A stretch of 56,434 bases of DNA from Candidatus Staskawiczbacteria bacterium (GTDB taxonomy: Bacteria > Patescibacteriota > Minisyncoccia > Minisyncoccales > Staskawiczbacteraceae), in the NCBI GenBank assembly GCA_903845295.1, contig CAIMWV010000010.1, forward strand, positions 1 through 56,434. The letters are read 5' to 3'. Under the pieces are notes generated by a model. That model did no database searches. It was not told where the DNA came from and worked only from the letters and a program-made list of their open reading frames with translations. Each line of letters starts with the position of its first letter. Within the stretch, counting starts at the first letter, position 1. Shown here piece after piece: positions 13,922 through 39,833 of the stretch. The position numbers and the translations under genes were made by a program.

Positions 13922-15661
13922 TTATGCGACCTCGCTTTGATAACAACTTTCGCAGTAAACAATTTCCTGGCGGTCCGGAGCATATGAGGTTTCAATTTCT
14001 TTGCCGCATTTTGCACATTTCCGTGAAAATATTTTAATCGGATTCAGCTGTTTGAAACGCACCCTGTCGCGGCAAAGAGGACATTGGCGCGGGATTGGAA
14101 GATCCATCCGGCGGTAGAAATCAAGCTCCATTTTTACCAGCCTATAGTTTTTTCCGCAATCGTCGCATTTTAATATGCCGCCAAGAATCTCGTCTGTAAC
14201 GTCTTTAATATCATCTGCAAAAGAAACCGTTGCCGGTTCATACTCTTTTGCATCGGAATCCCGCCAAACATAGCCGTTGCTGACAGCTTCTTCCTTGGAA
14301 ATCGGGAAAAATTCATAAGCGCTTGTTTCATTATATGCCCACGGAGAAAATTCAGCCGGGAAATATTCTCCGTAACGATATTCTTTCTTCCGCGAATCAA
14401 TATAGGGCACTTCCATCATCTGTTTTTTAATCTTTCCCACCAAATCTTGATAGTCTTTCTTTGAGTATTGTTTATTTAAAATGCAATATTCTGAATTCCG
14501 AATTCCGACGCAGCCGAAAAGGTTTCCCGAGCCATGGCAAGCAAAACTATATTCCAAATCATGCGCATGGTAATTCCAAAAACTGAACTTGATATTATTA
14601 ACAGTAAGGCCGACCCACACCGATTCGTATATCAATTCAGAATTTTCTCCAAATATTGTATAGTCATAAGCGTCTTTCGATGGGCCCAATTTAAGAAGTT
14701 GGCCATATCGGATATTTTCTCCGTTACCTACCTGATAGGAATCGTGCACATTTTTTGAATTAAAAATATAGTCTCCGGTTACGTTTACATTTTTGCGCCC
14801 ATGGAATTGCCTGCGAGGATATTCAAGAAATAATTTTTCTGCTCTTGCCCTGAAATCATTTACGTTTTTCAATGACCCGAAATTCAATTCTTCAAGTTTT
14901 TTTGCGTATTCTTCCTTTGTGTAGGGTTGATTCAATATGTGATATTGCTTGTTACGCAAGTTAATACAGCCTATGCAATTGGAACAGCCTATGAGATCTC
15001 TTGAGAACCAAATGTCCTGTGAATCTTCGCAGTCTTGCGACCAAAACGCACGATAACACTTATTTGCCATCACAGCCTGGTAGCAAAGCTCGCTGTCATT
15101 TGTGAACGCCACGTCAAAACATTCTTTATTTTTTGCCATCGTGTTGGTATAGGCGCAATTTTCACTAAAATCACTTCTGAAGCAAAGGTAGCAATTTTTT
15201 AAATCCGCCGCGCCATTACACCAAGGGCTATTAATCATGGTCGTATGAGAAGTATAGAGGGTTGGATGAGGAACCTCGCGGAAAAGTTGAAGCCACTGTT
15301 CGAAAAATGATTTTTTAAAGTCGTATTCTTTGCCAAATGACTTTGGGTCCCATTCATCCGACCACCATTTTTCTTGCGAATAAATCTTATGCGGATTTCC
15401 CGGAGGATAAAACGTTATCCCCTCTTCCCCAGAATCAAATTTCTGGCGGTATAAAATTCTCCCGCTTGTCCACACGAAGCGCCGCATCATCCTGCACTCC
15501 GGACACCATGTGGGCGAAGGCACTTTCATCTTCTCGCAAAACGCAGAATCATCGGACTCAATCACGAACTCATTATTGCAGTTTTGGCATACTCGCACTG
15601 AGGACTTCGAGTGAGCCTCAGTCGAACTCCCTGCCGAAGTGTTTTTTGTATCGCTTTCCAT
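13922..15661 (-). CDS. Cys-rich dual zinc-ribbon array protein, paralogue 1
   Basis: N-term CQNCNNEFVIESDDSAFCEKMKVPSPTWCPECRMMRRF; two FGCVxLRxxxYxILN-type blocks; C-term ETSYAPDRQEIVYCESCYQSEVA. Confidence 0.9.
   Translation of the reverse strand: MESDTKNTSAGSSTEAHSKSSVRVCQNCNNEFVIESDDSAFCEKMKVPSPTWCPECRMMRRFVWTSGRILYRQKFDSGEEGITFYPPGNPHKIYSQEKWWSDEWDPKSFGKEYDFKKSFFEQWLQLFREVPHPTLYTSHTTMINSPWCNGAADLKNCYLCFRSDFSENCAYTNTMAKNKECFDVAFTNDSELCYQAVMANKCYRAFWSQDCEDSQDIWFSRDLIGCSNCIGCINLRNKQYHILNQPYTKEEYAKKLEELNFGSLKNVNDFRARAEKLFLEYPRRQFHGRKNVNVTGDYIFNSKNVHDSYQVGNGENIRYGQLLKLGPSKDAYDYTIFGENSELIYESVWVGLTVNNIKFSFWNYHAHDLEYSFACHGSGNLFGCVGIRNSEYCILNKQYSKKDYQDLVGKIKKQMMEVPYIDSRKKEYRYGEYFPAEFSPWAYNETSAYEFFPISKEEAVSNGYVWRDSDAKEYEPATVSFADDIKDVTDEILGGILKCDDCGKNYRLVKMELDFYRRMDLPIPRQCPLCRDRVRFKQLNPIKIFSRKCAKCGKEIETSYAPDRQEIVYCESCYQSEVA
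15596..15641. repeat. REP-like repeat in frame near the N-terminus of paralogue 1
   Basis: cactgaggacttcgagtgagcctcagtcgaactccctgccgaagtg, encoding NTSAGSSTEAHSKSSV. Confidence 0.7.
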
Positions 15662-15664
15662 AAT

Positions 15665-16285
15665 TTACTTTTTATCCAAAAAATTAATTATCCGTTGTAT
15701 TTTTTTAACTTCCAGCGCATTTTTTTCTTCTCTTCCTTCTCTCCATGCTAGCCCAATTTTTTCTACCCATCCCTTCTTTTCTTCAATCAATAGGTTTGGT
15801 AACAAAACTTTCGCCTTAACTCCTAAGAATTCTTTTTCAATAGAAATATCATTATAATCACCCGCAAAACGGATTTCTTTGCCATGCATCGGAATTACTA
15901 CCTCCTTCGTCTTATCATCAAAAAAACTAATATGGATATCACAATGGGCAGCCCGTGTTGTTTCTGCGTCAATTGGATCAATTCTTAATAAATCATCCTC
16001 TCCATGCGCCTTGGATTTACAAACTAAGTGGCCTTCTTTTTCCAAAAAAATTTTTGCATCTCCAACGTTATCTCTATCGATTATGAAATCAACGTCTTTA
16101 TGATTCCTGGAAATATAACCCAGATAAGCGTCAACGGCAAAACCGGACAAAACAACATATTTCCAATTTTTTTCAGATGCCCGAATCACAATTCTCTTAA
16201 ACAAATCAATTGCCTTTTTAGTTCTTTCATCCATCTCCCCTTCAGCAAGCGGCGGGATTTCTTTTTTTAATAAATTATCGTTCAT
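15665..16285 (-). CDS. Nucleotidyltransferase-like protein (aminoglycoside nucleotidyltransferase-type fold)
   Basis: YVVLSGFAVDAYLGYISRNHKDVDFIIDRDNV; ARAAHCDIHISFF-type second acidic motif (AAHCDIHISFFDD). Confidence 0.7.
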   Translation of the reverse strand: MNDNLLKKEIPPLAEGEMDERTKKAIDLFKRIVIRASEKNWKYVVLSGFAVDAYLGYISRNHKDVDFIIDRDNVGDAKIFLEKEGHLVCKSKAHGEDDLLRIDPIDAETTRAAHCDIHISFFDDKTKEVVIPMHGKEIRFAGDYNDISIEKEFLGVKAKVLLPNLLIEEKKGWVEKIGLAWREGREEKNALEVKKIQRIINFLDKK

Positions 16286-16327
16286 AAATTAATGGATTAT
16301 GCCACTTCTGTATTGTAGTATTGCTTG

Positions 16328-16376
16328 CCCTTCGACAACCCTTCGGCACGGCTCAGGGCAAGCGCTCAGGGCTTCA
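16328..16376. repeat. Compound REP-like repeat downstream of paralogue 2
   Basis: cccttcgacaacccttcggcacggctcagggcaagcgctcagggcttca, similar to 13861-13910. Confidence 0.75.
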
Positions 16377-16387
16377 GTTGCTTTTAT

Positions 16388-18133
16388 TTATGCCACCTCA
16401 CTATTGTAGCAACTTTTGCAATAAACGATTTCTGGCCTGTCCGGAGCATAAGAAGTTTCAAATTCATTTGGACACTTTTCTTCCCCATGAGAATGATTTT
16501 TCTGCTCGCACATACATTGGCGGTGCCAAAGCTTGATAGGCGTACGCTGGGCAATCCTGGCAAAATGGCGGCAGTTCGGGCACAGTTGCGGAACCGGGAT
16601 GCCCATGCGTTTGTAAAAATTCAGATCGCTCGACGTTACCTTAAAGGCTTCCGTGCATTGGTGGTTGCATTTTCCAGCGTGGGCGCACCCGATTGTTTCC
16701 TTTAAAATTTGTTCATCAACCTGGTCAATCGAGTCCGGAATGTTTTCTGCTTTTAAGGTGATTTTATAATTCTTAGCCGCGAAATCAACCCACCTGTATC
16801 CGTTTTTTAATGCCTCTTCTTTTGACATGGGGAAAAGCTCTTGAGCGATGGTTTCGTTATAGGCGAATCCGTGCATATCCAACGGGAAGGTTGAACCATA
16901 ACGGAATTCCCTTCCCAAAGAGTCTTTGTATGGAAGCGCATCCATTTGCTCTTTGATTCTCGGCACTAATTCTTCATATTCTTCTTTGCTGTATTGTTTA
17001 TTCAAAATGCAATACTGTTTTTTCCGCAAACCGACGCAGCCAAATAAATCAGATGAACTGTGGCAATTTACGCAGTATTGGGCGCGGATTAACTGGTCCC
17101 AACATTCATTTGAAAAAAACACCTGGCTGCACTGGCGGCCGATTGAGGAGCATTCATAAATAAGCTCTGAAAAAGCGGCCCAATATGTAAAATCCATCAC
17201 ATCTTTCCCATCGGTAATTCCAAAAAGATATTTGCCGTCTTCCACTCTTTCGCAATTAAATCCTACCTTCACATTTTTGCATTGCTCTAACCAATTACCC
17301 GAAACATCAGTGCTGTGATTTTCTACAAGACACGGCACGATGTGTTTTGATGAAAATTCTGCCATTTTTTTGCGCATTTCTTCTACTTCCTTGCGACTTT
17401 TTGGCCAAAGTGTTTTAATTTTATCTTTATATTCCTCTTTTGTATATTGCTCGTTGAAAATGCAATAATTCTTATTGCGCAAATTAACGCAACCAAAACA
17501 ATCAGTACAGTTTTTACAATTTAACAAAAAGGCGGAATTTGAGCAGGTACTACATTCTCTTGAATACATCAACCTGTTACAACCATAACAATCAATGCAC
17601 TCAAAACACAGTTCAGACGAATGAATATTATAGTTGTCCATACTATCTTTTGAATCCCAAATTGAAGTGCCGTAAGAACAATTTTCGTTCGTAGAGGCGG
17701 CAAAAATAAGATAACAGTTTTTGTTGTCGCTGGCCCTGTTGGTATATTCGCTGTTTACGTTTGTTCCTTGTTGAATAATTCCCATCCTTGGAACCTTAAG
17801 GAATAAATCTTTAAGCTGCTCGAAAAATGGTTTTTTAAAGTTATAGTCTTTCCCATAAGATTCAGGATCCCATTTGTCAGACCACCAGCAAGAATAGCAA
17901 TAAACAGTGTAGGGGCTTTCCGGCGAATAAAGCAAAATTTTTTCTTTACCGCACAGATTGCACTTTCTTTTAAAAAGAGACCTCTCGCCCCTCCACGCCA
18001 AACGTTTGACCAGCCTGCACTCCGGACACCACGTCGGTGGCGGCACTTTAATCTTCTCATAAAAATTAAAATCGTCGGGCTCAATCATGAACTCCTTTTT
18101 ACAGTTTTGACATGTTCTTTTTTGGCTTTCCAT
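16388..18133 (-). CDS. Cys-rich dual zinc-ribbon array protein, paralogue 2
   Basis: CQNCKKEFMIEPDDFNFYEKIKVPPPTWCPECR...FGCVGLRKKQYCILNKQYSKEEY...ETSYAPDRPEIVYCKSCYNSEVA. Confidence 0.9.
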   Translation of the reverse strand: MESQKRTCQNCKKEFMIEPDDFNFYEKIKVPPPTWCPECRLVKRLAWRGERSLFKRKCNLCGKEKILLYSPESPYTVYCYSCWWSDKWDPESYGKDYNFKKPFFEQLKDLFLKVPRMGIIQQGTNVNSEYTNRASDNKNCYLIFAASTNENCSYGTSIWDSKDSMDNYNIHSSELCFECIDCYGCNRLMYSRECSTCSNSAFLLNCKNCTDCFGCVNLRNKNYCIFNEQYTKEEYKDKIKTLWPKSRKEVEEMRKKMAEFSSKHIVPCLVENHSTDVSGNWLEQCKNVKVGFNCERVEDGKYLFGITDGKDVMDFTYWAAFSELIYECSSIGRQCSQVFFSNECWDQLIRAQYCVNCHSSSDLFGCVGLRKKQYCILNKQYSKEEYEELVPRIKEQMDALPYKDSLGREFRYGSTFPLDMHGFAYNETIAQELFPMSKEEALKNGYRWVDFAAKNYKITLKAENIPDSIDQVDEQILKETIGCAHAGKCNHQCTEAFKVTSSDLNFYKRMGIPVPQLCPNCRHFARIAQRTPIKLWHRQCMCEQKNHSHGEEKCPNEFETSYAPDRPEIVYCKSCYNSEVA

Positions 18134-18144
18134 GTTGTTTTTAA

Positions 18145-18164
18145 CGGCTCAACGCGTTGAGCCG
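18145..18164. repeat. Perfect 20 bp palindrome between paralogues 3 and 2
   Basis: CGGCTCAACGCGTTGAGCCG. Confidence 0.85.
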
Positions 18165-18171
18165 ATGGATT

Positions 18172-19857
18172 TTACGCTATTTCTGCATTGTAGCACTGTT
18201 CACAGTAAATTTTGAATTTCTTTTGACTTTCTGGTGAGTATGAGGTTTCTATGTGTTTACCACAATTGGCACATGCTCCCGCCCAAAGATTCCTTGGGTT
18301 TCGCGTCGCCATTCGTCCTGCATGCCTACAATTAAAACATTGCGATGGAAGTGGGAGTTTGTTTCTCTTATAAAAATTTACTTCTCGATTGATGAGTTTA
18401 AAATTTTTTTGGCAACTTGTACAAGCAAGTGTTTCATTCATAAGCTGATCGCTATATTCTTCCGGGTTTTTCGGTAAATTTTCATGTTCGATAGTTCCTT
18501 GTCCTTTTGTGCTAGGAATATCATCTTTCCATGTAAAGCCTTGGGCCAGAGCTTCTTCTTTGTTTAGTGGCATATACTCATTAACTATTGCTTCGTTATA
18601 ACCAAAAGGGCTTAATTCTTTTGGAAAAAATAATCCCCAATCGCTAGTCTTTTTCAAATTTTCAATGATTTTTTCTTTTAATTCTTCGTATTCTGCTTTA
18701 CTATATTGCTTGTTCAAAATGCAATAAGATTTTTTGCGAAGTCCATAGCACCCGAAAAGATTGTTGCAGTTATGACAATTATCCGAGTAGCAAACATCGT
18801 GTGAATCAACTATCTCGTGGGAACCAATAACCCTATTACTGTTTAGCATGGTCAAGACTTGATAACATTCTGACAAATCACCGGTAAAAGATACGTCGTA
18901 TGAATCTATTGCCTTTCTTACTGTAAAACAAAATTTAGAATCCTCTCCGCTTTTTATATCAAAAGAATAATGAACGTTATGTGCATTGTATATATGATTC
19001 CCAGAAACATTGTTGTTGTGCGAACCGAAGAAAGCGCGCTGGGGAATTTTTGTACGTAAAACATCTCGCTCTTTTAAAATATAATCTATACTTGATTTTT
19101 CTTTTAGCGGATACTTTGATAGAAAATTTTTGTACTCTTCTTTTGTAACTGGCTTATTAAAAATGTTGTAAGACTTATTTATTTGTCCTACACAACCAAT
19201 ACAATTTAAACAATTTCTACAATCAAAAAGTCCAATACTGTCTACGCAACTCTCGCACTCTTGCGAATAAAAAAGTTTCGATGATTCTAAGCAATCGACG
19301 CATTCGTAACAAGATTCTGATTTAAATAGGTATAGATTATCTACCGAATCTCGGCAATTCCAAACAATATGACCATAATCACAGTCTTCATCGTTTAGAC
19401 CACCGAAGATAAGATAGCAATTTTTGCTTTGATTGATTTGGTTTGCATACTCACAATTCTCGGTCTCGGAATTCATCACGTTAACGCGCGGAACTGTATT
19501 GGATAATCTGGCGAGTTGAGTAAAAAATGGCTTCTGGCTATCAAAATCAATCCCGTAAGTCATGGGGTCCCAGTCATCACTCCACCATTCAGATACACTA
19601 TAAACAGGAAAGAGTGCGTCGGGACCATACGCAGAGACAATCATGTCGCCAGATTTACTAGATGGCCTTTTATACAATGTTTTAAAATTTCTAAAAAGCA
19701 TACGCAACTGCTGACGGCATTGTGGACAAATTTCCGGCGCTGGGACTTTCATTTTTTCGTAGAAAGCAAAATCATCGGACTCAATTACGAAATCCTTTTT
19801 GCAGTTTTGGCAGACTCGCACTGAGCCTGCCGAAGTGTTTTTGGTTTCCGATTTCAT
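18172..19857 (-). CDS. Cys-rich dual zinc-ribbon array protein, paralogue 3
   Basis: CQNCKKDFVIESDDFAFYEKMKVPAPEICPQCRQQLR...FGCYGLRKKSYCILNKQYSKAEY...IYCEQCYNAEIA. Confidence 0.9.
   Translation of the reverse strand: MKSETKNTSAGSVRVCQNCKKDFVIESDDFAFYEKMKVPAPEICPQCRQQLRMLFRNFKTLYKRPSSKSGDMIVSAYGPDALFPVYSVSEWWSDDWDPMTYGIDFDSQKPFFTQLARLSNTVPRVNVMNSETENCEYANQINQSKNCYLIFGGLNDEDCDYGHIVWNCRDSVDNLYLFKSESCYECVDCLESSKLFYSQECESCVDSIGLFDCRNCLNCIGCVGQINKSYNIFNKPVTKEEYKNFLSKYPLKEKSSIDYILKERDVLRTKIPQRAFFGSHNNNVSGNHIYNAHNVHYSFDIKSGEDSKFCFTVRKAIDSYDVSFTGDLSECYQVLTMLNSNRVIGSHEIVDSHDVCYSDNCHNCNNLFGCYGLRKKSYCILNKQYSKAEYEELKEKIIENLKKTSDWGLFFPKELSPFGYNEAIVNEYMPLNKEEALAQGFTWKDDIPSTKGQGTIEHENLPKNPEEYSDQLMNETLACTSCQKNFKLINREVNFYKRNKLPLPSQCFNCRHAGRMATRNPRNLWAGACANCGKHIETSYSPESQKKFKIYCEQCYNAEIA
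19819..19837. repeat. REP-like repeat in frame near the N-terminus of paralogue 3
   Basis: cactgagcctgccgaagtg, encoding NTSAGSV, same position as in paralogue 1. Confidence 0.7.
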
Positions 19858-19860
19858 ATT

Positions 19861-21615
19861 TTATACTACCTCGCTATTATAGCAACTTTCGCAGTAAATT
19901 ATTTCAGGACGTTCCGGCGCATACGGCGTTTCAAATTCATTCGCACAATTCGCACTGCCGTGAGAATGATTTTTCTTGTCGCACATGCATTTTCTGTGCC
20001 ATAGCTTAAGGGGGTTTCTTTGGGCGAGGCGTTCGTAGTGCCTGCAGTTGGGGCACATCCTTGGTAAGGGTAAGTTCGCCTTTCTGTAGAATTGCAGCTC
20101 TTCTTTGATTATTTTAAAGGCGGTGGTGCATTGGTGGTTGCACTCACCTTTGTGGCCACATCCTATTACCTTGCCGATAATATCATCGCCGACATCTTTG
20201 ATATGGTCCGGCAAGTCTTGCGATAGTATGTCTATTTTGTAGGTTTTCTCTTCCGGATCTTTCCAGCGATAACCTTGCGGCATGGCCTGTTCTTTGGTTA
20301 AGGGAAAGTACTCTTGGGCAATGGTTTCGTTGTAGGCAAAGGGGCTCAATTCTGAAGGGAAAAATTCGCCATATTTATAAACTCTTCCCTGCTTATCGAC
20401 ATACGGCATATCTGCCATCTGTTTTATAATTTTGGAAACCAGCTCCTCATATTTTTCTTTAGTGTATTGCTTGTTCAAAATGCAGTATTGCTTGCTTCGC
20501 AGTCCCGTGCAGCCAAAAAGATTCTGCGATCCCGTACAGTTTAGAGAATAAGAAACATTTGTGCTACCCTTGATAACCTGGCTGAACAGATAATAGGCGT
20601 TTTCGGTGGATTCAAAGCCAAGCGAAAGCGATTCGTACAGCATTTCACCGCGGCTTAAGCCATAAACATCATAAGAATCCTTCAGCCCGATGCCTATGTA
20701 GTGAGAGAAGGCGGAATTTTCGTAGTTATCTCCGGAAAAATCAAAGCACTCCTTGCAATTCTTTGAATTTTTAAGGTTATCCCCCGTAGATTGGGCTGTC
20801 TTAATCATCTGGGCATATTTGCGCAGCGCTCCTTTTCGGAGGTCGTTATACTTTTCAATGTGCTCTTGTAAAACCGCGTAGCTTCCTAAGTCAATCTGTT
20901 TCAGCTTTGAAAGATATTCCTCTTTGGAATAAGGCTGGTTAAACAGATAGTATTGCTTGCCCCGGAGGTTCACGCTGAAAGAGCAGTTCTGGCAATTCCT
21001 GCAGTCGAAAAGGAAATTTGAGTCTGTGCACGCATCGCAATACTGGGAATACTTCAAGTTGTACGAATTCTCGCATTGGACACACTGGTAGCAGCGCTCG
21101 TTACGCGTGCCGGTGTAACAATCAATGCTGTCTTTACACATGTAAATGCGGTTGGAATACAAGATGCCCTCGCTCTCCCTGCCAGCAATTTGCAAGTAGC
21201 AGTCTTTGGCCCCTGACATATAATTGCAGTAATCAGAATTGCTCGGCGTGGTATTAAAAAGCGCCATGGAAGGCGTGCGCTGCAGCAACTCCAAAAATTG
21301 GGTCATGAAGGGGCGGGAGAAATTATAAGCAACGCCTGCAGCCATGGGATCCCAGGAATCCGACCACCAGCAGTCTTGACAATAAACGACGAACGGCGAG
21401 TCGGCCGGATAAATCGAAACCATCTGCTTGCCGCACTGTGCACAATTCCGGCGGTACAGCGCCCGCTCATTTCTCCAAGTCATCCTGCGCTGGTTGCGGC
21501 ATTCTGGACAAAAAGTCGGCGGAGGCACTTTAATCTTCTCATAGAATGAAAAATCATCGGGCTCGATGATGAAGTCTTTTTTACAATTTTGGCAAATTTT
21601 GGTTTCTTGTTCCAT
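19861..21615 (-). CDS. Cys-rich dual zinc-ribbon array protein, paralogue 4
   Basis: CQNCKKDFIIEPDDFSFYEKIKVPPPTFCPECRNQRR...FGCTGLRSKQYCILNKQYTKEKY...ETPYAPERPEIIYCESCYNSEVV. Confidence 0.9.
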   Translation of the reverse strand: MEQETKICQNCKKDFIIEPDDFSFYEKIKVPPPTFCPECRNQRRMTWRNERALYRRNCAQCGKQMVSIYPADSPFVVYCQDCWWSDSWDPMAAGVAYNFSRPFMTQFLELLQRTPSMALFNTTPSNSDYCNYMSGAKDCYLQIAGRESEGILYSNRIYMCKDSIDCYTGTRNERCYQCVQCENSYNLKYSQYCDACTDSNFLFDCRNCQNCSFSVNLRGKQYYLFNQPYSKEEYLSKLKQIDLGSYAVLQEHIEKYNDLRKGALRKYAQMIKTAQSTGDNLKNSKNCKECFDFSGDNYENSAFSHYIGIGLKDSYDVYGLSRGEMLYESLSLGFESTENAYYLFSQVIKGSTNVSYSLNCTGSQNLFGCTGLRSKQYCILNKQYTKEKYEELVSKIIKQMADMPYVDKQGRVYKYGEFFPSELSPFAYNETIAQEYFPLTKEQAMPQGYRWKDPEEKTYKIDILSQDLPDHIKDVGDDIIGKVIGCGHKGECNHQCTTAFKIIKEELQFYRKANLPLPRMCPNCRHYERLAQRNPLKLWHRKCMCDKKNHSHGSANCANEFETPYAPERPEIIYCESCYNSEVV

Positions 21616-21665
21616 AATTTTTTTTAGTAATTATATTTATGCTGTTTCTGAATTATATCGCTATG

Positions 21666-23381
21666 CTATGCGACCTCGCTGTTATAACACTGCTCGCAGT
21701 AAATTATTTCTTTACGATCTGGGGCATAGCTGGTTTCGAATTTATTGGGGCATCGTTCTGTATGATGCGGGTGATTTTTATCGCACATGCACTGGCGGTA
21801 CCAAAGCTTAACCGGGTTTCTCCAGGCAAACCTGCTGTAATGTCGGCAATTCTGACATATTCGGGGCAACGGAATATTAAGCTTTCTGTAAAACTGCAGT
21901 TCTTGGTTGGTGATTTTAAATACTCCTACACATTCGTGTGCGCATTCTCCTTCGTGAGCGCAGCTAATGACCTCTTTGGTGATGTTTTCATCAACATTGG
22001 CAATGTCATCGGACACATCAGCACTGGACATGGTTGCTTTAAATTGTTTCTCTTTGGAATCGCGCCAAACAAACCCCTTATTTTCAACTTCCTCTTTTGT
22101 GAGAGGAAAATGTTCATAGGCAAAGGATTCGTTGTAAGCCAAAGGACTCATCTCTACTGGGAAGAACTCTCCGTACTCCCCAGTTGATTTCATGTGCTCA
22201 ATAATTTTTGGAACTATCGCCTCGTATTCTTCTTTGGTATATTGTTTATTAAAAATGCAATATTGCTTGTTGCGCAAACTGATGCAACCGAATAGGTAAG
22301 AAGAATTCTGACAGATATAACAATATTGCAAATTGGCATTGGAAGGATAACAGAATGCGGAAAACGCCACGTTATACGCCCCATCGCCCACAACAAGCGA
22401 ATTATAAATTAATTCTGACCCGCTCCCAAAATTACTGTGATCATATGAATCTTTCGCAGGACCCAATGTAAAGTTTTGGCAGTATTTAACATTTTCGCCA
22501 CCAACAATTCTCCAGCAATTCTTAGCGTCTTTGGAATCAAAGATATAGTCTCCGGAAACATTGGCGTTATGACGGCCGTGAATAAATTTATTTGGAAACT
22601 GCGCCCAGTGCCCAATACTCTTCTCTCTTAAAGCTTCGACATTAGTCCTTGAAGTTACCCCAATCTCTTCTAATTTTTCGAGATACTCTTTTTTGGAATA
22701 AGGCTGATTAAATATGTGATAAGACTTATTTTTTAAATTAGCGCAGCCAAAACAATTATTGCAACCAACACAATTCTTGCAGAACATCGCCTCGCTGCAT
22801 CCTTCGCAATCTATAGAATACAGCGTTTTATAGCACTTGGTGATATTAACGCAGTCATAACAAAGCTCAGACTCGTTATAAATATGGCAGTCAAAAATAT
22901 CTTTGGATTTAGCTCCCCAAATAGAATATGCAGAATTCTCCACATATGAGATGCCGAAGCTAAGATAACAATCTTTAGGTTCAGTAGCATTAGCACAGTA
23001 ATCACTGTTCAGCGGCTTAGAAAGGTTCCTGGACATAAGAGGAACTTGCCTCATTAGTTCTTTAAACTGTTCAAAAAATGGACGTGAAAAATCATAATTT
23101 CGTCCGTATTGCAGCGGGTCCCAGGAATCTGAATACCACTCTGACACTTCCATTATTTTAACCGGAGAATCCTCATGAAACATAGAAAAAATTTCCTTGC
23201 CATGGATATCTTTTTTCCTCATGAGCTTCCACTCGTTGCGCCACGAAAACCGTCTTTGCATCCTGCACTCAGGGCACCATGTGGGCGGCGGTACTTTTAT
23301 TTTTTCATAAAACGCAAAATCATCGGGTTCGATGATGAACTCTTGTTTACAATTCTGGCACTGGCGCGTTTCTTGATCCAT
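21666..23381 (-). CDS. Cys-rich dual zinc-ribbon array protein, paralogue 5 (start moved to MDQETRQ)
   Basis: CQNCKQEFIIEPDDFAFYEKIKVPPPTWCPECRMQRR...ETSYAPDRKEIIYCEQCYNSEVA. The 13 aa upstream of MDQETRQ overlap the previous gene's tail. Confidence 0.9.
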   Translation of the reverse strand: MDQETRQCQNCKQEFIIEPDDFAFYEKIKVPPPTWCPECRMQRRFSWRNEWKLMRKKDIHGKEIFSMFHEDSPVKIMEVSEWYSDSWDPLQYGRNYDFSRPFFEQFKELMRQVPLMSRNLSKPLNSDYCANATEPKDCYLSFGISYVENSAYSIWGAKSKDIFDCHIYNESELCYDCVNITKCYKTLYSIDCEGCSEAMFCKNCVGCNNCFGCANLKNKSYHIFNQPYSKKEYLEKLEEIGVTSRTNVEALREKSIGHWAQFPNKFIHGRHNANVSGDYIFDSKDAKNCWRIVGGENVKYCQNFTLGPAKDSYDHSNFGSGSELIYNSLVVGDGAYNVAFSAFCYPSNANLQYCYICQNSSYLFGCISLRNKQYCIFNKQYTKEEYEAIVPKIIEHMKSTGEYGEFFPVEMSPLAYNESFAYEHFPLTKEEVENKGFVWRDSKEKQFKATMSSADVSDDIANVDENITKEVISCAHEGECAHECVGVFKITNQELQFYRKLNIPLPRICQNCRHYSRFAWRNPVKLWYRQCMCDKNHPHHTERCPNKFETSYAPDRKEIIYCEQCYNSEVA

Positions 23382-23386
23382 AATAT

Positions 23387-25168: not shown

Positions 25169-25173
25169 ATTTT

Positions 25174-28715: not shown

Positions 28716-28733
28716 TCGTTCGCTTATTAATAA

Positions 28734-30467: not shown

Positions 30468-30487
30468 TTATATTAAATTAATTATTG

Positions 30488-31948: not shown

Positions 31949-32100
31949 GGTTTTGCGAGCGAGGCGAGCGAAACTACTTCGAAATTCTTGGCCATATGAT
32001 ATATCGAATACATTGGTGCCAAAATTTCGCTGAACACCTTGCTTTTCGTGAGCAAAAAGCGAACGCTTCGTCCCATTTAGCGGGACGCTGAACACCTTAC
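31949..32100. repeat. Structured hairpin repeat, copy B (two consecutive hairpin units)
   Basis: GCGAGCGAGGCGAGCGAAACTACTTCGAAATTCTTGGCC..GATATATCGAATACATTG..GTGCCAAAATTTCGCTGAACACCTT, then CTTCGTCCCATTTAGCGGGACGCTGAACACCTT. Confidence 0.8.
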
Positions 32101-32198
32101 GCTATTTAGTTATATTTAATTATTTCTATCATAGCTTTTTCGCGCCTTTTTAGCAATACAAAATCGCAGGCGAATATGCCGCTTTATCCGGAAATTTT

Positions 32199-32507
32199 TC
32201 ACAATCCAGTAGAGGCAATTAACCAATCTTTGAAGTCACGATTCAGGCGATACAGCGTAATGGTAGCCATACAAGGAACACCCCCCTGGTAATGTTCTCT
32301 GACAATGTCCTCTATGTCTTGAATATGCTTATCAATGGTCATGATGATCATAGTCGCACCCGAAGCCTCGGTTACTCCGCCGTTGACCCGAGAGATTGAA
32401 TCAGTGAGCATAATATCTACTTTACCAGCCATTTTTTTCTCCACTAGGAGTTTGGCAATGGTTTTGGCCGTATCAAGGTTTTGACATGGCACGTAAATAA
32501 AGATCAT
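32199..32507 (-). CDS. CutA1-like protein
   Basis: MIFIYVPCQNLDTAKTIAKLLVEKKMAGKVDIM...YRLNRDFKDWL; CutA-like pattern from memory. Confidence 0.65.
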   Translation of the reverse strand: MIFIYVPCQNLDTAKTIAKLLVEKKMAGKVDIMLTDSISRVNGGVTEASGATMIIMTIDKHIQDIEDIVREHYQGGVPCMATITLYRLNRDFKDWLIASTGL

Positions 32508-32540
32508 GTGATTTATATTAGTTAATAATTAAATTAATTC

Positions 32541-32815
32541 AGGGTGGCGTTACAATATTAGGACCAACTTAGCGGAGTGAATTAAGGCAATATTCAAGGC
32601 GCGAGGAGCGAACCTAATGCCTATGCGCATTGTTCGATCTGAAGCAACGAAGAAGATTGCCTTAATTCGCCCGCCCTTCGGGAAGTCCAAAAAATGGCTG
32701 ATTTCTGTGGGACTCCTCGTCGGCGTAACGCAGAGGTTACAACCTCCTCGTCGTGCCTCGAAATCATCTCATTTTTTGACTTCTAAATTTGGCCATAATA
32801 TTGTAACGCCACCCT
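32541..32815. mobile_element. MITE-like element with 20 bp perfect TIRs and nested internal hairpins
   Basis: Left AGGGTGGCGTTACAATATTA (32541-32560), right TAATATTGTAACGCCACCCT (32796-32815). Internal IRs GAATTAAGGCAAT/ATTGCCTTAATTC and GAAGTCcAAAAAATG..GATTTC/GAAATC..CATTTTTTGACTTC. Confidence 0.85.
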
Positions 32816-34532
32816 AGGCTACCTCGGCCTGGTAGCAACTTTCGCAGTAGACTATCTCCGGACGGTCCGGAAAATAGGATGTTTCAAATTCGTTGGGGCA
32901 TCGTCCTGTATGATGCGGGTGATTTTTATCGCACATACACTGGCGATGCCAGAGTTTGCGCGGATTGCGCCTCGCCAATCGTTCCTGCAGACGACAAGCA
33001 GAACACTTGTGCGGAATTGGCAGATTAAACCGGCGATAAAATTGGAGTTCTGCAGGGTGCAATCTAAAGGCCGTAGCGCAACGCAGATGGCTTGCCTTCT
33101 CTTTTTCCGAATCTTGCGAACTGCAGCTTATAATCTCCTGAAGAATTGAGTCGGTTACGTCTCCAATTTTTGCCGGAAGCTTTTCATGAGGCAAAGTAAC
33201 TTTGTAATCCCGCGCATCACGGTCAAACCATTCCCAGCCTCGTGCAATAACTTCATTTTTTGTAAGCGGAAAATAATCCTGCGCTATGGTGTCATTATAA
33301 GGAAACGGGGAAATTGCAATGGGAAAAAATTCTCCCCATTCTTTGGTTTTTCTCATGTGCTCAATAATTTTTTCTTTCAAGATATGATATTCTTTTTCGG
33401 AATATTGCTTATTAAAAATACAATATGATTTTTTGCGCAACGACATGCAACCAAAAATATCATGGCAATTAAAGTTGAGCTCTGAATAGTGCGAATCATG
33501 GTTATACCATGACTTTGCCATACCAATACATTTTGCGCCCCATCCCGACCCTTCCATCTCGTAATCAAGTTCGTTATCAAGGGTTTCTGTCAAATCCATA
33601 CAATCACGAGCTTCCCAAGCGTCTTGCGCATAACTCGTGTTCTCGGAAAAGCGAACATTGAAACCATAACGAACATTTTTGTCGTAACCTATGTTTTCTC
33701 CCGTAGAGTTAATCGCCTTGCGGCCCTGGTAATATCTTCTTGGATGTTTTACCCAAAAATCTGCAACACGTTTTTTCATTTTTTGCACATCTTCGTACGC
33801 CCAAGAAATCTCTGTCAGACGCTTTTGAAATTCTTCTTTGGTAAGTTGTTCATTAAACCAGCAGTATGATTTACCGCGCAAACCCACGCAACCGAAACAA
33901 TTATTACACCCAGGGCAATCCATAGAAAAATACAAATCATTTGCGTCATGGCAATCTTCAATAAAAAAACACTTATAACAATCGCCACAATTTAATGATT
34001 CGTACATAATTTCGCATTCTTTCGTGGCCCATGAATCTACGCAATCTTTACTTTTTTGATACCAATTCCCATACATGCAATCCTCGCTCTCGCCACTGGC
34101 TACAACCATATAGCAATTTTTATTACGCTCCGATTGGTTGCTATATTCTGAATTGGCACTTTGAGAATTTGCTAACGCAATGCGGGGAACTTTATGCCGG
34201 AATTCAAAAAATTGTTCAAAGAAAGGTCTGAAAAAATCAAAATCTTGCCCAAACGCCATCGGATCCCATTTATCCGACCACCAGCAAGGCTGGCAATACA
34301 CCGGACCGGGATAGGATGAATTATAAATCGAAACCATGCTTTTGCCGCATAGCGAACAGTTGCGCTTATAAAAATTCCATTCATTCCGGTTGGCGGCGCG
34401 CCGCTGGTACCGACAATCAGGACAAAATGTCGGAGCCGGAACTTTAATTTTATCGTAAAACGCAAAATCATCGGGCTCAATCGTAAAGTCCTGCTTACAA
34501 TTTTGGCATTGTTTGGTTTCTGATTGGATCAT
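32814..34532 (-). CDS. Cys-rich dual zinc-ribbon array protein, paralogue 10 (start moved to MIQSETK)
   Basis: CQNCKQDFTIEPDDFAFYDKIKVPAPTFCPDCRYQRR...FGCMSLRKKSYCIFNKQYSEKEY...IVYCESCYQAEVA. ATGA overlap with paralogue 11. Confidence 0.9.
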   Translation of the reverse strand: MIQSETKQCQNCKQDFTIEPDDFAFYDKIKVPAPTFCPDCRYQRRAANRNEWNFYKRNCSLCGKSMVSIYNSSYPGPVYCQPCWWSDKWDPMAFGQDFDFFRPFFEQFFEFRHKVPRIALANSQSANSEYSNQSERNKNCYMVVASGESEDCMYGNWYQKSKDCVDSWATKECEIMYESLNCGDCYKCFFIEDCHDANDLYFSMDCPGCNNCFGCVGLRGKSYCWFNEQLTKEEFQKRLTEISWAYEDVQKMKKRVADFWVKHPRRYYQGRKAINSTGENIGYDKNVRYGFNVRFSENTSYAQDAWEARDCMDLTETLDNELDYEMEGSGWGAKCIGMAKSWYNHDSHYSELNFNCHDIFGCMSLRKKSYCIFNKQYSEKEYHILKEKIIEHMRKTKEWGEFFPIAISPFPYNDTIAQDYFPLTKNEVIARGWEWFDRDARDYKVTLPHEKLPAKIGDVTDSILQEIISCSSQDSEKEKASHLRCATAFRLHPAELQFYRRFNLPIPHKCSACRLQERLARRNPRKLWHRQCMCDKNHPHHTGRCPNEFETSYFPDRPEIVYCESCYQAEVA

Positions 34533-36265
34533 ACTACTTCGTTTAAATAACATTTCTCGCAAAAAATTTTAAATTGTTTTTGTTTTTCTTCGTCATAAAG
34601 CGAAAGGGATTTTTCACCGCAATTGGGGCAAACAAAAGGAAAAAGATCAAAAGGATGCTCAAAAAGAGCCCTTTCCATAATACGTTGCCAGGGGTGTTTA
34701 GTGGGAATTGGCAAATTCATGTGCCGATAGAATTTAAGCTCTTCAGCAATGATTTTAAAGGGCCGACCGGTTGTTTCACACCGGATAGCATCATTTAAAA
34801 TAGAGTCATCAACATTTTTAATATCGCTTGGAATTTCCTGGATGTCACGCAAATTGATTCCAGCTGGTATTTGTGACTCTGGTTCAAGATACCAAGGAAT
34901 GCCACGTTCAGCCGCCTCTTTTTCGCTAATCGGATAATATTTTTGACCCCTGCTTGCCTGATATGGGAAAAGTCCAAAAGAAAGAGAAAATAACTCTCCG
35001 TACTCGCCGTCATTAAGCATTCTTAGTTTAATTTCATCAACTAACGGCCAATAGTCGTTTTCAGAATAGGGCTTGTTAAAAATATGAAATTTTTTGTTTT
35101 TCAGCCCGACGCAAGCAAAACAATTTTGACAATTAGTGCACTCCGAAGAGTATTCAATCCCATTACTTGCCCGGATATAAAGACTGAAAAGAACATTGCT
35201 GCTGCCAGTGCCATTCACCACCTCATAGATTTTCTCGGCTTTATCGGCGTCATAGCAGGAATCCATTATATCTTTGACCCCCCCGAAGGTCTCTACAAAA
35301 CGAAGATTCTGCCCCTCGGGGCCGTCAAAGGCCCAAAAACAATCCTTGCAATTATTAAGCCCGTTGCCAACGCAGTTTATAGTATTGGTAAGCCACAAGG
35401 AACGATGCAGGGCATTTTTGTAAACGCCGTCAAAACGCCGGACAAGATCCTGGAAAACGACCCGATCGCCCAAGTTCAAGCCGGCGATTTTTGCCTGGTA
35501 GTCTTGCTTGCTTAATTGTTTATTCTCAAAAAAATAAGATTTGTTCCTGAGATTCGATGAAAGGAAACAATTATTACAATTTTTGCAATCATACAGGAAG
35601 GCTGAATCCAGGCATTGCACAGACCCGATGCTAAAAATGCAGTGGCTGCAACGGTCAGCGCCCACGCAGGAATAACAGAATTCACAATTCCAAACCCTGG
35701 AGCAGTCAACGCAGAATTTGGAGAATCTCACATCGTCACCATAAGAGCAGTCCTCGCTGTGGAAACCGCCGGAAAAATAGTAATTGTTTTTCCCCCAGCG
35801 GCCACCTACGGAATATTCCGAATTTATCGATGTGATATCCCTCTCGAGAGCCAGGTGCGGCACATTGAAAAATAGTTCTTTAAACTGTTCAAAAAATTTC
35901 CGGCCAGGGTTATATGAACGGCCGTATGATGTTGCTTCCCAGGAATCGGAGTACCAGTAATTAACATCGTAAACCTTGTGGGGCGATGAGGCCGGGAAAA
36001 TAGTAACAATATTCTCGTTGTGGCCGGGGGCCGAGCACGGCCGTTTAAAAAATTTCGGCGTACGCATCAGCAAACCGAACCGGCGGATTTTGCGGCACTT
36101 CGGGCATAGGGTCGGCGGCGGCACCCGGAACATGCGATAAAAATTGATATCCCCTGCCTCCACTTTGAATTTTTGCTTACATTCTAAACACACCCTCTCG
36201 TGGGGAACAAGGTCTTTTAAAATCTTATCAAGTGCTTCGTCAAATTTTGGTGTTTTGGAAATCAT
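34529..36265 (-). CDS. Cys-rich array protein, divergent paralogue 11 (start moved to MISKTPK)
   Basis: CLECKQKFKVEAGDINFYRMFRVPPPTLCPKCRKIRR...FACVGLKNKKFHIFNKPYSENDY...FKIFCEKCYLNEVV. ATGA overlap with paralogue 12. Confidence 0.88.
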   Translation of the reverse strand: MISKTPKFDEALDKILKDLVPHERVCLECKQKFKVEAGDINFYRMFRVPPPTLCPKCRKIRRFGLLMRTPKFFKRPCSAPGHNENIVTIFPASSPHKVYDVNYWYSDSWEATSYGRSYNPGRKFFEQFKELFFNVPHLALERDITSINSEYSVGGRWGKNNYYFSGGFHSEDCSYGDDVRFSKFCVDCSRVWNCEFCYSCVGADRCSHCIFSIGSVQCLDSAFLYDCKNCNNCFLSSNLRNKSYFFENKQLSKQDYQAKIAGLNLGDRVVFQDLVRRFDGVYKNALHRSLWLTNTINCVGNGLNNCKDCFWAFDGPEGQNLRFVETFGGVKDIMDSCYDADKAEKIYEVVNGTGSSNVLFSLYIRASNGIEYSSECTNCQNCFACVGLKNKKFHIFNKPYSENDYWPLVDEIKLRMLNDGEYGELFSLSFGLFPYQASRGQKYYPISEKEAAERGIPWYLEPESQIPAGINLRDIQEIPSDIKNVDDSILNDAIRCETTGRPFKIIAEELKFYRHMNLPIPTKHPWQRIMERALFEHPFDLFPFVCPNCGEKSLSLYDEEKQKQFKIFCEKCYLNEVV

Positions 36266-38052
36266 ATTACTTCCGCTTGATAACATTGTTCGCAGTAAAC
36301 TATTTCCGGGCGGTCCGGAGCATAAGAAGTTTCAAATTCGTTTGGGCATTTTCCGCTATGGTGTGGGTGGTTGTTTGCCTGTGGTGAGCTTGTCGAACCA
36401 TCGCACATGCACTTTCTGTGCCACAGATGCACAGGATTCCTTAATTTTGTTCTTTCAAAATGGCGAGAGTTAAAACATCTTTGCGGAAGCGAAATATTCA
36501 TTCTCTTATAAAAAGCTAATTCTTCGGGAGTGATTTTGAAAGCTTTCGAACAATTATGCTCAAGCGCTTTTTCTTCGCCCTCCTCGTCCCAAGACCTGCA
36601 AAGAACAACCTCTTTTAAAATCGAATCTTTCACGCCTTCAAGATTAGCAGGAATATCCTTCCATGACATTGTATGATTATATTCTTTGCTCGTCATATCA
36701 CGCCAAGAAAATCCTGCCTCAATCGCTCCTTTTTTAGTAAAAGGGAGGTATTCTTGCGCAATTGTTTCGTTATAGCCATGCGGGCAAAATTCGGGCGGGA
36801 AAAACTCGCCGTATTTATACACCCTGCCTTTTGCATCAACGTAGGGCATGTCGTCCATATGTTTTTTGATTTTAGGGACAAGGGCTTCGTATTCTTTTTT
36901 GGTGTACTGCTTGTTTAAAATACAATACTCTTTATTCCTCATTCCAATGCATCCAAATAAATTGTGCGCTTCGTGGCAAAAGATCGAATATTCAATATTT
37001 CTTACAGATGTATATACAAATGCCGAAAATTTTATATTTGAAGCCTCAATAGCCACCGTAAGCCCTTCATATATAAGTTCGACGCCATCACCAGGGTAAG
37101 AATAATCATAACAATCCTTGGCGCCGGGCGGGAACACTACGTTCTGGCAATATCTAACATTTTCAGCATTTGAAACGCGAAATGAATTACGCGTTTCTTT
37201 TGCGTGGTAAATGTAATCTCCTGACACGTTTGAGGTGTGGCGCGCATGAATGTATTTAACCGGCACTGACAGCTTAAATTTATTGAACTCTGCTTTTGCT
37301 TTTTCCAAGCCATCAATGGAACTGAGATTAAACGACTTTATTTTATCTTTATATTCTTCTTTGGAATATGGTTTATTGAAAATGTGATAATTTTTGTTCC
37401 TCAACCCGGCGCATCCAAAGCAGTTTGAGCACCCGGCGCAATCTTGGCACAAAATTAACTCTTGCGAATTATCGCAATCTACGCAACACATAAGCTTATA
37501 AGATTTATTTACAAGAAAACATTCATAGCAAAGTTCACAATCGCTGACAAACAGGCAATCTGCGCAATTCTTTGAATTGTCTAAACCAACACTATATAAG
37601 CAGTCCTCGTCTGTATTGCCGTGAAAAACCAAATAACAATTCTTAACAGATCTGCAGCCTATATAGTAATCGCTGTTTATATTATTTACCGCGCTTCTGC
37701 TCGGTAGCGGAACTTCATGGAGCAATTCTTTGACTTGGGTCAGAAAAGGACGAGAAAAATCAATTTCTTTGCCATACTTTAGAGAATCCCAGTTGTCAGA
37801 CCACCAATAATCTCTTTCGTAAACTTTAACCGGAGCATCGGGAGCAAATGCTGAAAATATTAACTGGCCCGTGGCATCACACTTGCGCTTATATAGGGTT
37901 TTTTCATTTCTCCAAGTTATTCTCCGGCGTAATCTACAATCAGGGCACCACGTGGGTGGCGGAACTTTCATTTTTTCATAAAACGCAAAATCATCGGGCT
38001 CGATGACAAAGTCCTTTTTGCAATTTTGGCATTGTTTGGTTTCTGATTGCAT
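36262..38052 (-). CDS. Cys-rich dual zinc-ribbon array protein, paralogue 12 (start moved to MQSETK)
   Basis: CQNCKKDFVIEPDDFAFYEKMKVPPPTWCPDCRLRRR...FGCIGMRNKEYCILNKQYTKKEY...IVYCEQCYQAEVI. Confidence 0.9.
   Translation of the reverse strand: MQSETKQCQNCKKDFVIEPDDFAFYEKMKVPPPTWCPDCRLRRRITWRNEKTLYKRKCDATGQLIFSAFAPDAPVKVYERDYWWSDNWDSLKYGKEIDFSRPFLTQVKELLHEVPLPSRSAVNNINSDYYIGCRSVKNCYLVFHGNTDEDCLYSVGLDNSKNCADCLFVSDCELCYECFLVNKSYKLMCCVDCDNSQELILCQDCAGCSNCFGCAGLRNKNYHIFNKPYSKEEYKDKIKSFNLSSIDGLEKAKAEFNKFKLSVPVKYIHARHTSNVSGDYIYHAKETRNSFRVSNAENVRYCQNVVFPPGAKDCYDYSYPGDGVELIYEGLTVAIEASNIKFSAFVYTSVRNIEYSIFCHEAHNLFGCIGMRNKEYCILNKQYTKKEYEALVPKIKKHMDDMPYVDAKGRVYKYGEFFPPEFCPHGYNETIAQEYLPFTKKGAIEAGFSWRDMTSKEYNHTMSWKDIPANLEGVKDSILKEVVLCRSWDEEGEEKALEHNCSKAFKITPEELAFYKRMNISLPQRCFNSRHFERTKLRNPVHLWHRKCMCDGSTSSPQANNHPHHSGKCPNEFETSYAPDRPEIVYCEQCYQAEVI
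36379..36401. repeat. REP-like repeat in frame inside the C-terminal zinc module of paralogue 12
   Basis: tggtgagcttgtcgaacca core, encoding GSTSSPQ between CMCD and NHPHH. Confidence 0.65.
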
Positions 38053-38057
38053 AGTAA

Positions 38058-39833
38058 TTAAATTACTTCTTCTTGGTAGCACTGCTCGCAGTAGATAATT
38101 TCTTCGCGACCCGGAGCATATGGAGTTTCAAACTCATTTGGACAATGCCCATCGCCGTGAGAATGTTTTGTGGTGTTTTGATAAACTCCATTCTCTGATT
38201 TTTGTCCGGCACACTGGCATTTTCGATGATATAGCTTTAGTGGATTTCTTTGCGCCAAACGCTCGTAGTGCCTGCAGTTGGGGCACAATCTTGGCAAGGG
38301 CAGATTCATTTTTCTGTAGAATTGAAGTTCGTCTTTGATGATTTTGAATGCGGTTGTACACTGATGCACACACTTACCTTCGTGCGCACAGCTTATTACT
38401 TCGTTTAAAATCGAATCAGAAATGTCTTTGATATCGTCAAGTAAATCTAAATAAGAAACGTCCGGCTTATAATCCTTGGTTTCTGGATCTCTCCATGTAT
38501 AACCTCTCTTTAAAATCTCATCCCTTGTGAGTGGAAAATATTCCTGCGCAATTGTCTCATTATATGCAAACGGGCTAATCTCGGGCGGGAAAAATTCTCC
38601 ATATTTGTATACCCGGCCTTTTACATCGATATATGGCGTTTCGTTCATGTGCTCGATAATTTTGGGGACAAGAGCTTCGTATTCTTCCTTAGTATATTGT
38701 TTATTTAAGATGCAATATTTTTTGTTTCGGAGTCCGACGCATCCGAAAAGATTCGAGGAATTATGGCAACAATATGTATATTGCGTATCATGGCAAACAT
38801 GGGTAAACACGGCAAAACAGCAATGTGACGCCTGAACGCCTGTATCTATAAGCTCATACATCAAGTTTGCGTTGCCGCCAAAACCGTATCCGTCATAAAT
38901 ATCCTTGCCTTGCCAGCCGTGCATATCGAATTTAGAATCTTCTGTTTCGCCAAACACATCAAAGCATTCGTGCACATTCTTTGAACTCATAATATTATCG
39001 CCAGTCGAGTTTGTCGATCTTATAATTGAGGCGAACCGCCGCGGGAATTTTTTCGAAAACTCGCTAAATTTTTCTCGCAACGCCGTAAGACTCTTATAAC
39101 TCCCCAAATTCAATTTTTCGATTTCTTTTTTATAGTCCTCTTTAGAATATGGCATATTCCATATGTGGTAAGACTTGTTTCTCAAATTCACGCACCCGAA
39201 ACAATTATTCGCATTCGCGCACGAACGCAGAAAATATGACCCCAGGCTGTTGTCAGAATCATACGCAAAAAACACTTTGGATAAATTCGCGCTTATTACG
39301 TCCTCGTAACATTGCTCCCCGTCCTCCATAATATAAAGATCCATCGAATCCTTACATCTCAATGCGCCATTAGAATAATGTGTGTTTTCGTTGGTAAACG
39401 ACGCATACGTAAGATAGCAATCCTTCATATCAGCATTATGGTTGCCATACTCGCTATTCCTTACGTTGTTGTTTGCTAAGTTTGGAAGCGGAGCTAATTC
39501 AAATAATTCTTTAAACTGCTTAAAAAACGTTTTTGAAAAGTCATAATCGCGGCCGGATTTAAGCTGGTCCCATTTGTCTGACCACCAATAGTCTCTTTCA
39601 TAAACGACAAGGGGTTGCTCTGGTGCGAACATTGTAATAATATCCTTGCCGGTAGCGTCGCACTTTCTATGGTAAAGAGTGCGCTCATTTCTCCAACTCA
39701 TACGCCGGATAATTCTGCACTCCGGGCAAAACGTCGGAGGGAGCACCTTCATCTTCTCATAAAAATCAAAATCCTCGGGCTCGATAGTGAACTCGTTTTT
39801 ACAATTTTGGCATTGTTTGGTCTCTTTCAACAT
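38058..39833 (-). CDS. Cys-rich dual zinc-ribbon array protein, paralogue 13 (start moved to MLKETKQ)
   Basis: CQNCKNEFTIEPEDFDFYEKMKVLPPTFCPECRIIRR...FGCVGLRNKKYCILNKQYTKEEY...IIYCEQCYQEEVI. Confidence 0.9.
   Translation of the reverse strand: MLKETKQCQNCKNEFTIEPEDFDFYEKMKVLPPTFCPECRIIRRMSWRNERTLYHRKCDATGKDIITMFAPEQPLVVYERDYWWSDKWDQLKSGRDYDFSKTFFKQFKELFELAPLPNLANNNVRNSEYGNHNADMKDCYLTYASFTNENTHYSNGALRCKDSMDLYIMEDGEQCYEDVISANLSKVFFAYDSDNSLGSYFLRSCANANNCFGCVNLRNKSYHIWNMPYSKEDYKKEIEKLNLGSYKSLTALREKFSEFSKKFPRRFASIIRSTNSTGDNIMSSKNVHECFDVFGETEDSKFDMHGWQGKDIYDGYGFGGNANLMYELIDTGVQASHCCFAVFTHVCHDTQYTYCCHNSSNLFGCVGLRNKKYCILNKQYTKEEYEALVPKIIEHMNETPYIDVKGRVYKYGEFFPPEISPFAYNETIAQEYFPLTRDEILKRGYTWRDPETKDYKPDVSYLDLLDDIKDISDSILNEVISCAHEGKCVHQCTTAFKIIKDELQFYRKMNLPLPRLCPNCRHYERLAQRNPLKLYHRKCQCAGQKSENGVYQNTTKHSHGDGHCPNEFETPYAPGREEIIYCEQCYQEEVI

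Follow-up and report, generated by a model that had tools for sequence, protein, structure and literature searches.

The window analysed here is a stretch of 56,434 nucleotides (positions 1 to 56,434 of contig CAIMWV010000010.1, assembly GCA_903845295.1) from a Candidatus Staskawiczbacteria bacterium, a tiny bacterium that probably depends on a host. It carries 13 tandem genes for Cys-rich proteins with shared ends and dissimilar interiors, located between the gene for a VirD4/TraG-like coupling ATPase, here called the motor, and the phosphoglycerate kinase gene (pgk). A second coupling ATPase is encoded inside the array. The genes and elements that define the locus are as follows.

41926..43416, minus strand, P0001, membrane protein with 4 hydrophobic segments
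39905..41908, minus strand, VirD4/TraG-like coupling ATPase (TrwB_AAD_bind 57.0 bits, TraG-D_C 25.9 bits, C-terminal zf_Tbcl_2 48.9 bits)
39865..39889 (approximate), minus strand, terminator-like hairpin CCGCTTGG-ATT-CCAAGCGG-TTTTTT, between the motor gene and the array
38058..39866, minus strand, family copy 1, first to follow the motor; M at 39833 is the probable start
36262..38082, minus strand, family copy 2
34529..36286, minus strand, family copy 3, one of the two that diverge most; some C-terminal zinc ligands are missing
32814..34562, minus strand, family copy 4
30488..32095, minus strand, second VirD4/TraG-like ATPase, inside the array (TrwB_AAD_bind 33.9 bits, TraG-D_C 26.2 bits)
28734..30467, minus strand, family copy 5
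26959..28623, minus strand, family copy 6; its subfamily, represented in 10 genomes, is the most widely shared
25174..26955, minus strand, family copy 7
23387..25198, minus strand, family copy 8
21666..23420, minus strand, family copy 9
19861..21615, minus strand, family copy 10
18172..19857, minus strand, family copy 11
16388..18133, minus strand, family copy 12, modelled with AlphaFold; subfamily in 7 genomes, in several at the pgk end
13922..15661, minus strand, family copy 13
12616..13662, minus strand, phosphoglycerate kinase (pgk), the other boundary of the insertion site

The array and its members

Six-frame open reading frames (ORFs) and their translations identified 13 intact family ORFs, all on the minus strand, at window positions 13922-39866, with longest-ORF lengths of 554-606 aa. 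Alignment showed that the N-terminal CQNCKxxFxIEPDDFxFYEKxKVPxPTxCPxCR and the C-terminal ETSYAPDRPEIVYCExCYxxEVA are common to all 13 proteins. When one copy was used as the query against the whole genome, exactly 13 loci were recovered, all on a single contig (16 hit segments, three being additional pieces of genes already hit), with every gene at E 1e-77 or better, which excludes chance and bears out the 13 same-strand, Cys-rich paralogues reported in a preliminary description of this DNA. The family accounts for 22.8 kb, or 2.9% of the 779-kb, 35-contig genome. An assembly artefact was rejected, as the shared ends are not exact copies but mostly 60-83% identical, and the pattern is seen in many independent assemblies.

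The upstream starts of the ORFs at 23387, 21666, 32814, 36262 and 38058 extend into the preceding gene; the true start is likely to be the methionine of M(Q/E/D)xETK immediately ahead of CQNC.

Architecture of the array proteins

The AlphaFold model of copy 12 (pLDDT 91.1, pTM 0.92; alignment input of 121 relatives) and periodicity analysis indicated a layout of a two-zinc-finger module, two Cys-rich beta-solenoids, an acidic linker and a second zinc module. By eye, the N-terminal ~100 and the C-terminal ~100 residues form the same two-finger module, which exists elsewhere as a free protein of 104-105 aa (loci L192 and L197), and both solenoids are capped by an LRxKxYCIxNxxYxKEEY segment running into a helix. 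The net charge is +4.3 for the C-terminal zinc module and -3.9, -3.0 and -6.4 for the solenoids and linker.

The ends, previously described as zinc-ribbon-like, are probable treble-clef zinc modules at both termini, and such fingers were the only Pfam matches, mostly below cut-off. At the C-terminus of the 13922 copy zf_Tbcl_2 scored 27.0 bits against a curated cut-off of 27, which was reached in one of five scanned copies, and zf_Tbcl scored 17.8 and 16.5 bits against a cut-off of 24, a resemblance rather than membership. Both motifs of the zf_Tbcl (PF13451) and zf_Tbcl_2 (PF23477)/TIGR04272 pattern, CxxC-x17-CxxC, are present in the end modules; the known members of these families are short zinc domains, whereas the array proteins have two modules placed around two solenoids. 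Except for zinc fingers and weak matches, no Pfam, NCBIfam or PADLOC domain was detected in the array proteins, and the 13 proteins gave neither a match to any characterised family nor a PDB sequence match of note.

Cys and small residues of the first solenoid are spaced three positions apart (z 7.4 at lag 3 and 6.4 at lag 12), with 36% C, 19% S and 10% L in the inward register and 41% N/D in another. Each protein has 27-42 cysteines, and those of the solenoids exchange freely with Ser, Leu, Val and Ile, so that they look like core residues and not like metal ligands. The tight 12-residue beta-solenoid pattern is typified by the insect antifreeze protein (TmAFP, PF02420), which, like pentapeptide repeats, shares with the array solenoid a core residue at every third position, a coil of ~12 residues, a Cys/Ser core and an Asn/Asp register. 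A search of the full-length model with Foldseek gave no significant match, and the isolated solenoid gave low-confidence matches to pentapeptide-repeat and right-handed beta-helix proteins (TM about 0.1). A hexapeptide left-handed helix, suggested by full-length LpxA/GlmU-like matches with E above 1, was rejected because the 12-residue coil fits the period of 3 and 12 better. A hypothetical protein of Campylobacter phage CPt10 (L282, FN667789.1, 138920-139345), present in several Campylobacter phages, has weak solenoid similarity (E 8e-4); it lies downstream of a P-loop/helicase gene, and a depositor note records insect antifreeze (PF02420) matches for it.

No membrane helix or N-terminal signal was predicted in any of the 13 copies, so that their sequences do not support the earlier suggestion of surface or secreted proteins, and since no signal peptide was found, disulfides are unlikely in the solenoids.

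Distribution and repertoire

All 11 same-genus genomes contained between 3 and 22 matches to the family, and matches were found in 31 of 247 genomes of the order and in 63 of 380 of the phylum, about half of these 63 having near full-length copies. The spread is patchy, from 0 to more than 20 copies in relatives, with many close relatives having none. The expanded repertoire proposed earlier is thus seen across the genus and, patchily, elsewhere in the Patescibacteria, and it does not take the form of single-copy orthologues with uniform interiors and a known enzyme fold.

A tree built from 111 full-length copies (15 genomes) placed the 13 array members in 13 different clades and contained just one same-genome sister pair. 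The repertoire therefore samples old subfamilies, and a recent tandem burst was rejected. The clade of copy 1 also includes copies from seven other genomes, several of which lie at the motor end of their own array; more generally, gene order is loosely kept, some subfamilies favouring the motor end, the middle or the pgk end.

A phage or plasmid origin was rejected, since annotated phages gave one weak match (E 2e-4, covering the N-terminal 14%), plasmids none and IMG/VR one partial contig. A defence system was likewise rejected (PADLOC E 0.03 or worse). Literature searches found no paper on the array protein family.

Two further observations concern its occurrence. One family array (L093, JAMPXW010000002.1) lies on a contig titled Burkholderiales, and this metagenome-assembled genome is probably mislabelled or mis-binned. 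A permuted single-copy variant (L262:3729-5286 and L263:4642-6207; G527 and G469; also L264-L266) has the solenoids in the lead, followed by an N-type zinc module, either fused or in the next gene, and by a C-type zinc module as a gene of its own.

Stable interiors and exchanging ends

According to the preliminary description, the interiors differ strongly and vary between fixed end caps. Strong divergence holds between the paralogues of this genome, which are 62% identical in the N-terminal cap, 29-37% in the solenoids and 50% in the C-terminal region, and is reversed between orthologues. For orthologues, the median nonsynonymous divergence (dN) of the solenoids was 0.08-0.09, a value biased low because pairs were chosen with more than 80% interior identity. 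The flanking regions gave 0.11-0.12 and the 40 codons at either end 0.18-0.19, and this contrast between caps and flanks is free of the bias. Synonymous divergence (dS) was near saturation, which limits safe inference from dN/dS to strong purifying selection. Between orthologues, by these sequence comparisons, the interiors are under strong purifying selection and stable within each subfamily, and a hypervariable interior was rejected for them. Copy number varies across relatives, and orthologous interiors are conserved.

The caps, in contrast to the interiors, have lost their orthology signal and are partly homogenised within genomes. At residues 1-20 orthologues are 59% alike and paralogues 60-62%; at residues 41-60 the figures are 84% versus 39%. 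The four 20-codon windows at the termini were compared at the nucleotide level: for 72, 71, 41 and 61% of copies, the best same-genome paralogue was as close as the best orthologue or closer, a share that mostly stayed below 10% in interior windows. The within-genome excess of similarity over size-matched sets of other genomes ranged from +0.028 to +0.066 at the ends and was close to zero in the interior, and label permutation gave z values of 4.1 and 3.3 at the ends and of 0.4 and -1.1 in the controls. The cap pattern is repeated in a distant lineage (G379, G617, G495, G503).

Same-genome copies on other contigs are as alike at their ends as neighbouring ones, and adjacent copies are not more alike than distant ones, which favours ectopic exchange and led us to reject unequal crossing-over between neighbours alone. 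Relics are consistent with recombination at the ends: in G015, G013 and G005 the ends are retained and joined and the middle is lost, G015 retaining broken family copies only, and mini-genes with intact ends and deleted middles (L178:4704-4889 and 5691-5900; L179:232-576; L188:2628-2894; L160:2256-2357) appear to have been joined where the two zinc modules share short stretches of similarity. In the window, two probable fossil C-termini lie between genes.

16297..16314 (approximate), minus strand, probable fossil C-terminus of a lost copy (NTEVA stop)
13832..13849 (approximate), minus strand, probable fossil C-terminus of a lost copy (QQEVV stop)

The first of these is part of a 173-bp 3' repeat (13830-14002 and 16296-16468) with 78% identity.

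With ends alike within genomes and bodies following orthology, the family has the pattern of a multigene family recombining at conserved ends, and we consider with moderate to good confidence that ectopic recombination or gene conversion works on about 120 bp at each end, as judged from sequence comparison. Besides the low bias of the solenoid dN, two points count against this view: the within-genome excess at the ends is modest (1.6-1.8% nucleotide identity by permutation), and the lost orthology there could partly reflect family-wide constraint and saturation.

The pilE/pilS genes of Neisseria are a multigene family with conserved ends that is diversified by recombination, and in both systems recombination uses the conserved ends as arms that enclose differing bodies. 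Unlike pilE/pilS, the array copies are intact with their own starts, exchange alters the caps and not the bodies, and the bodies are under purifying selection; neither silent donor cassettes nor diversifying selection on the bodies was found in the array.

Association with a VirD4/TraG-like coupling ATPase

The strongest functional clue, missing from the preliminary description, is the coupling ATPase beside and inside the array. Both ATPases score above the curated cut-offs for domains of type IV coupling proteins (T4CPs), namely 20.5 bits for TrwB_AAD_bind and 22 bits for TraG-D_C. No transmembrane helix was predicted in the ATPases at 39905 and 30488. In locus L192 a fused ATPase has an N-terminal membrane half to which P0001 is homologous (E 5e-16); P0001 is probably the split-off membrane half of the motor. 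A VirB4-type ATPase is encoded on another contig of the genome (PF19044, 107.7 bits).

The 39905-type ATPase had some match in all 38 relatives searched, weak or partial in a few, and among the matches listed for these relatives, close homologues of the 30488 type occurred only in genomes with arrays or relics. In 15 of 15 array-less loci examined, the ATPase gene and pgk are adjacent, and at 14 of these loci a P0001 homologue lies upstream; the array is therefore an insertion between motor and pgk. Since the motor occurs without the array, the dependence is that of the array on the motor, not of the motor on the array.

The neighbour found most often beside family genes is a TraG-like ATPase (47 genomes or loci), and all 53 cases within 500 bp are on the same strand. 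Among 79 named loci, 29 have an ATPase in the stretch, and in 20 of these an ATPase immediately adjoins a family gene and shares its strand. In a distant lineage, six separate arrays have the ATPase inside or beside them (E 1e-147 to 1e-160). Furthermore, all seven distant solenoid-only homologues examined are near a TraG-like ATPase on the same strand: six are separate genes with at most one gene between, often overlapping the ATPase gene, and in the seventh (L198) ATPase and solenoid form one 638-aa protein with the solenoid at the C-terminus. Other T4CPs bear recruitment extensions at this position.

Other features in and around the array

The array is interrupted by the TraG-like ATPase, by two further genes and by a short element resembling a miniature inverted-repeat transposable element (MITE).

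32541-32815, MITE-like element of 275 bp with 30-bp inverted repeats at its ends (90%)
32199..32507, minus strand, CutA1, inside the array
15665..16285, minus strand, nucleotidyltransferase-like gene (PF10706, 24.6 bits), inserted between two copies

In 14 loci a CutA1 homologue and a family gene are at most 500 bp apart. Four more partial copies of the MITE-like element, 76-87% identical, occur elsewhere in the genome. A hairpin, GGCTCAACGCGTTGAGCC, between two copies at window positions 18134-18171 may be a terminator or attenuator, and a search for RNA elements gave no Rfam match. At 44984-46012 the window encodes a protein with a HARE-HTH domain and sigma-70 region 4, a look-alike of which sits between the solenoid and ATPase genes in locus L192 (1954-3003).

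Proposed function and alternative explanations

Our leading interpretation, held tentatively and at a little less than even confidence, is that the array proteins are exchangeable substrate-recognition subunits of the VirD4/TraG-like motor, because the motor occurs alone, expanded arrays are usually near it, a solenoid can be a domain of the motor itself, and a zinc finger (zf_Tbcl_2) is shared by the motor and the array proteins. The array would then supply a membrane-anchored T4CP with a library of cytoplasmic subunits that can replace one another. The terminal two-zinc-finger modules are proposed to act as docking handles, the ATPase having the same kind of finger, and the two Cys-rich solenoids would provide the recognition surface. 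Each solenoid type may represent an old, stable specificity, of which a genome would hold a changing selection, while ectopic recombination at the conserved ends would add, delete and re-cap bodies, leaving the solenoids unaltered. A narrower form of this proposal, a plug-in specificity library for the T4CP motor in which each solenoid type selects a different substrate for movement between epibiont and host and which is restocked by recombination at the zinc-ribbon ends, is conceivable but less likely than not.

Several observations weigh against a role as motor subunits. No ATPase was present in the stretch examined at 50 of the 79 named loci, many of these being dispersed copies, and none was detected in the neighbourhood of the permuted single-copy variant in G527, G469, G552, G495 and G617. 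The distant solenoid-only loci number just seven. The terminator-like hairpin at 39865..39889, which was read directly from the sequence and is absent from the list of the terminator scan, lies between motor gene and array, so that the two are perhaps not one operon. Finally, the biochemical function as a whole, including binding to the motor, the docking of the zinc modules, the presentation of a substrate by the solenoid, the choice of substrate and the direction of transport, is a proposal inferred from sequence and context.

The main rival, which we regard as unlikely, is that the array proteins are cargo moved by the T4CP and a type IV secretion system (T4SS) into a host or prey, with the zinc caps as translocation signals and the solenoids as effectors acting on different targets. 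This would account for the same motor association, for the patchy repertoire with its high turnover and for conserved termini on unlike bodies, the usual look of secretion-tagged effector families; it would also suit the thousands of VirD4-like T4CPs of Patescibacteria, mostly far from virB4 and accompanied by few relaxases, reported in a recent survey (PMC12102498). However, the T4CP-fused protein of L198 and the one-to-one neighbour pairs in distant genomes suit a motor subunit better, and tightly folded, zinc-bound solenoids would be awkward for a narrow channel. Domain scans found no toxin, effector or enzyme domain, and no conserved immunity-like gene was seen among the commonest neighbours.

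It is less probable still that the proteins are nucleic-acid-binding regulators without an obligate link to the motor, with treble clefs that bind RNA or DNA and solenoids that either determine the target or imitate nucleic acid. Binding to nucleic acids is common among treble clefs, and the positive C-terminal zinc module, the negative solenoids and linker, and the dispersed copies without an ATPase agree with such a role, but the pairing and fusion with the ATPase would be left unexplained and the acidity of the solenoids is mild for a DNA mimic.

A selfish or neutral family, whose bodies spread and decay via end recombination with little benefit to the cell, appears very improbable: patchiness, middle-deleted relics, fossil C-termini and dispersed copies would be expected of it, but all 13 ORFs are intact, the bodies are under strong purifying selection, the genome retains different and not identical copies, and no transposase or integrase was recognised among the commonest neighbours of family genes. 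A metal or thiol store, serving as a zinc or redox buffer where the cell otherwise has little capacity, would fit the high Cys content and the CutA1 neighbour but is the most improbable of all, as the cysteines lie in one register of three and exchange like core packing residues, and 13 distinct conserved subfamilies would be needless for a store.

Comparison with known coupling protein complexes

The proposed role as exchangeable motor subunits is alike in logic to the DotL-type T4CP complexes, in which a membrane T4CP works with adaptor proteins; in the Legionella DotL-DotM-DotN-IcmSW complex, extra proteins aid substrate selection (PMC3441705). The array proteins showed no sequence relation to any of the adaptors listed, and the present system differs in having many paralogues instead of one adaptor set and a T4CP that is probably split into a membrane protein and a soluble ATPase. 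The 2025 survey (PMC12102498) reports 5,713 VirD4-like genes in 2,918 Patescibacteria genomes, most of these genes being remote from virB4, alongside few relaxases; it suggests that the Patescibacteria T4SS, which is MPF-FATA-related, has non-conjugative roles. The organism studied here belongs to the same phylum, in which VirD4-like T4CPs are abundant, and has a VirB4-type ATPase elsewhere in its genome. The passages of the survey that were consulted name no T4CP-linked protein family or substrate, and the solenoid family is absent from them.

Implications

The link between the solenoid family and a coupling ATPase is new, as is a mode of evolution in which conserved bodies would act as specificities and the ends as exchangeable connectors, which is unusual among gene families. 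The finding gives the T4CPs of Patescibacteria a concrete partner family that is conserved across distant Patescibacteria, fused to the motor once and present in at least 20 copies in some genomes. The identity of the partner, the choice of substrate and host specificity thereby become testable. If the proposal of a plug-in library is true, it would describe a modular system, for secretion or uptake, of a new kind.

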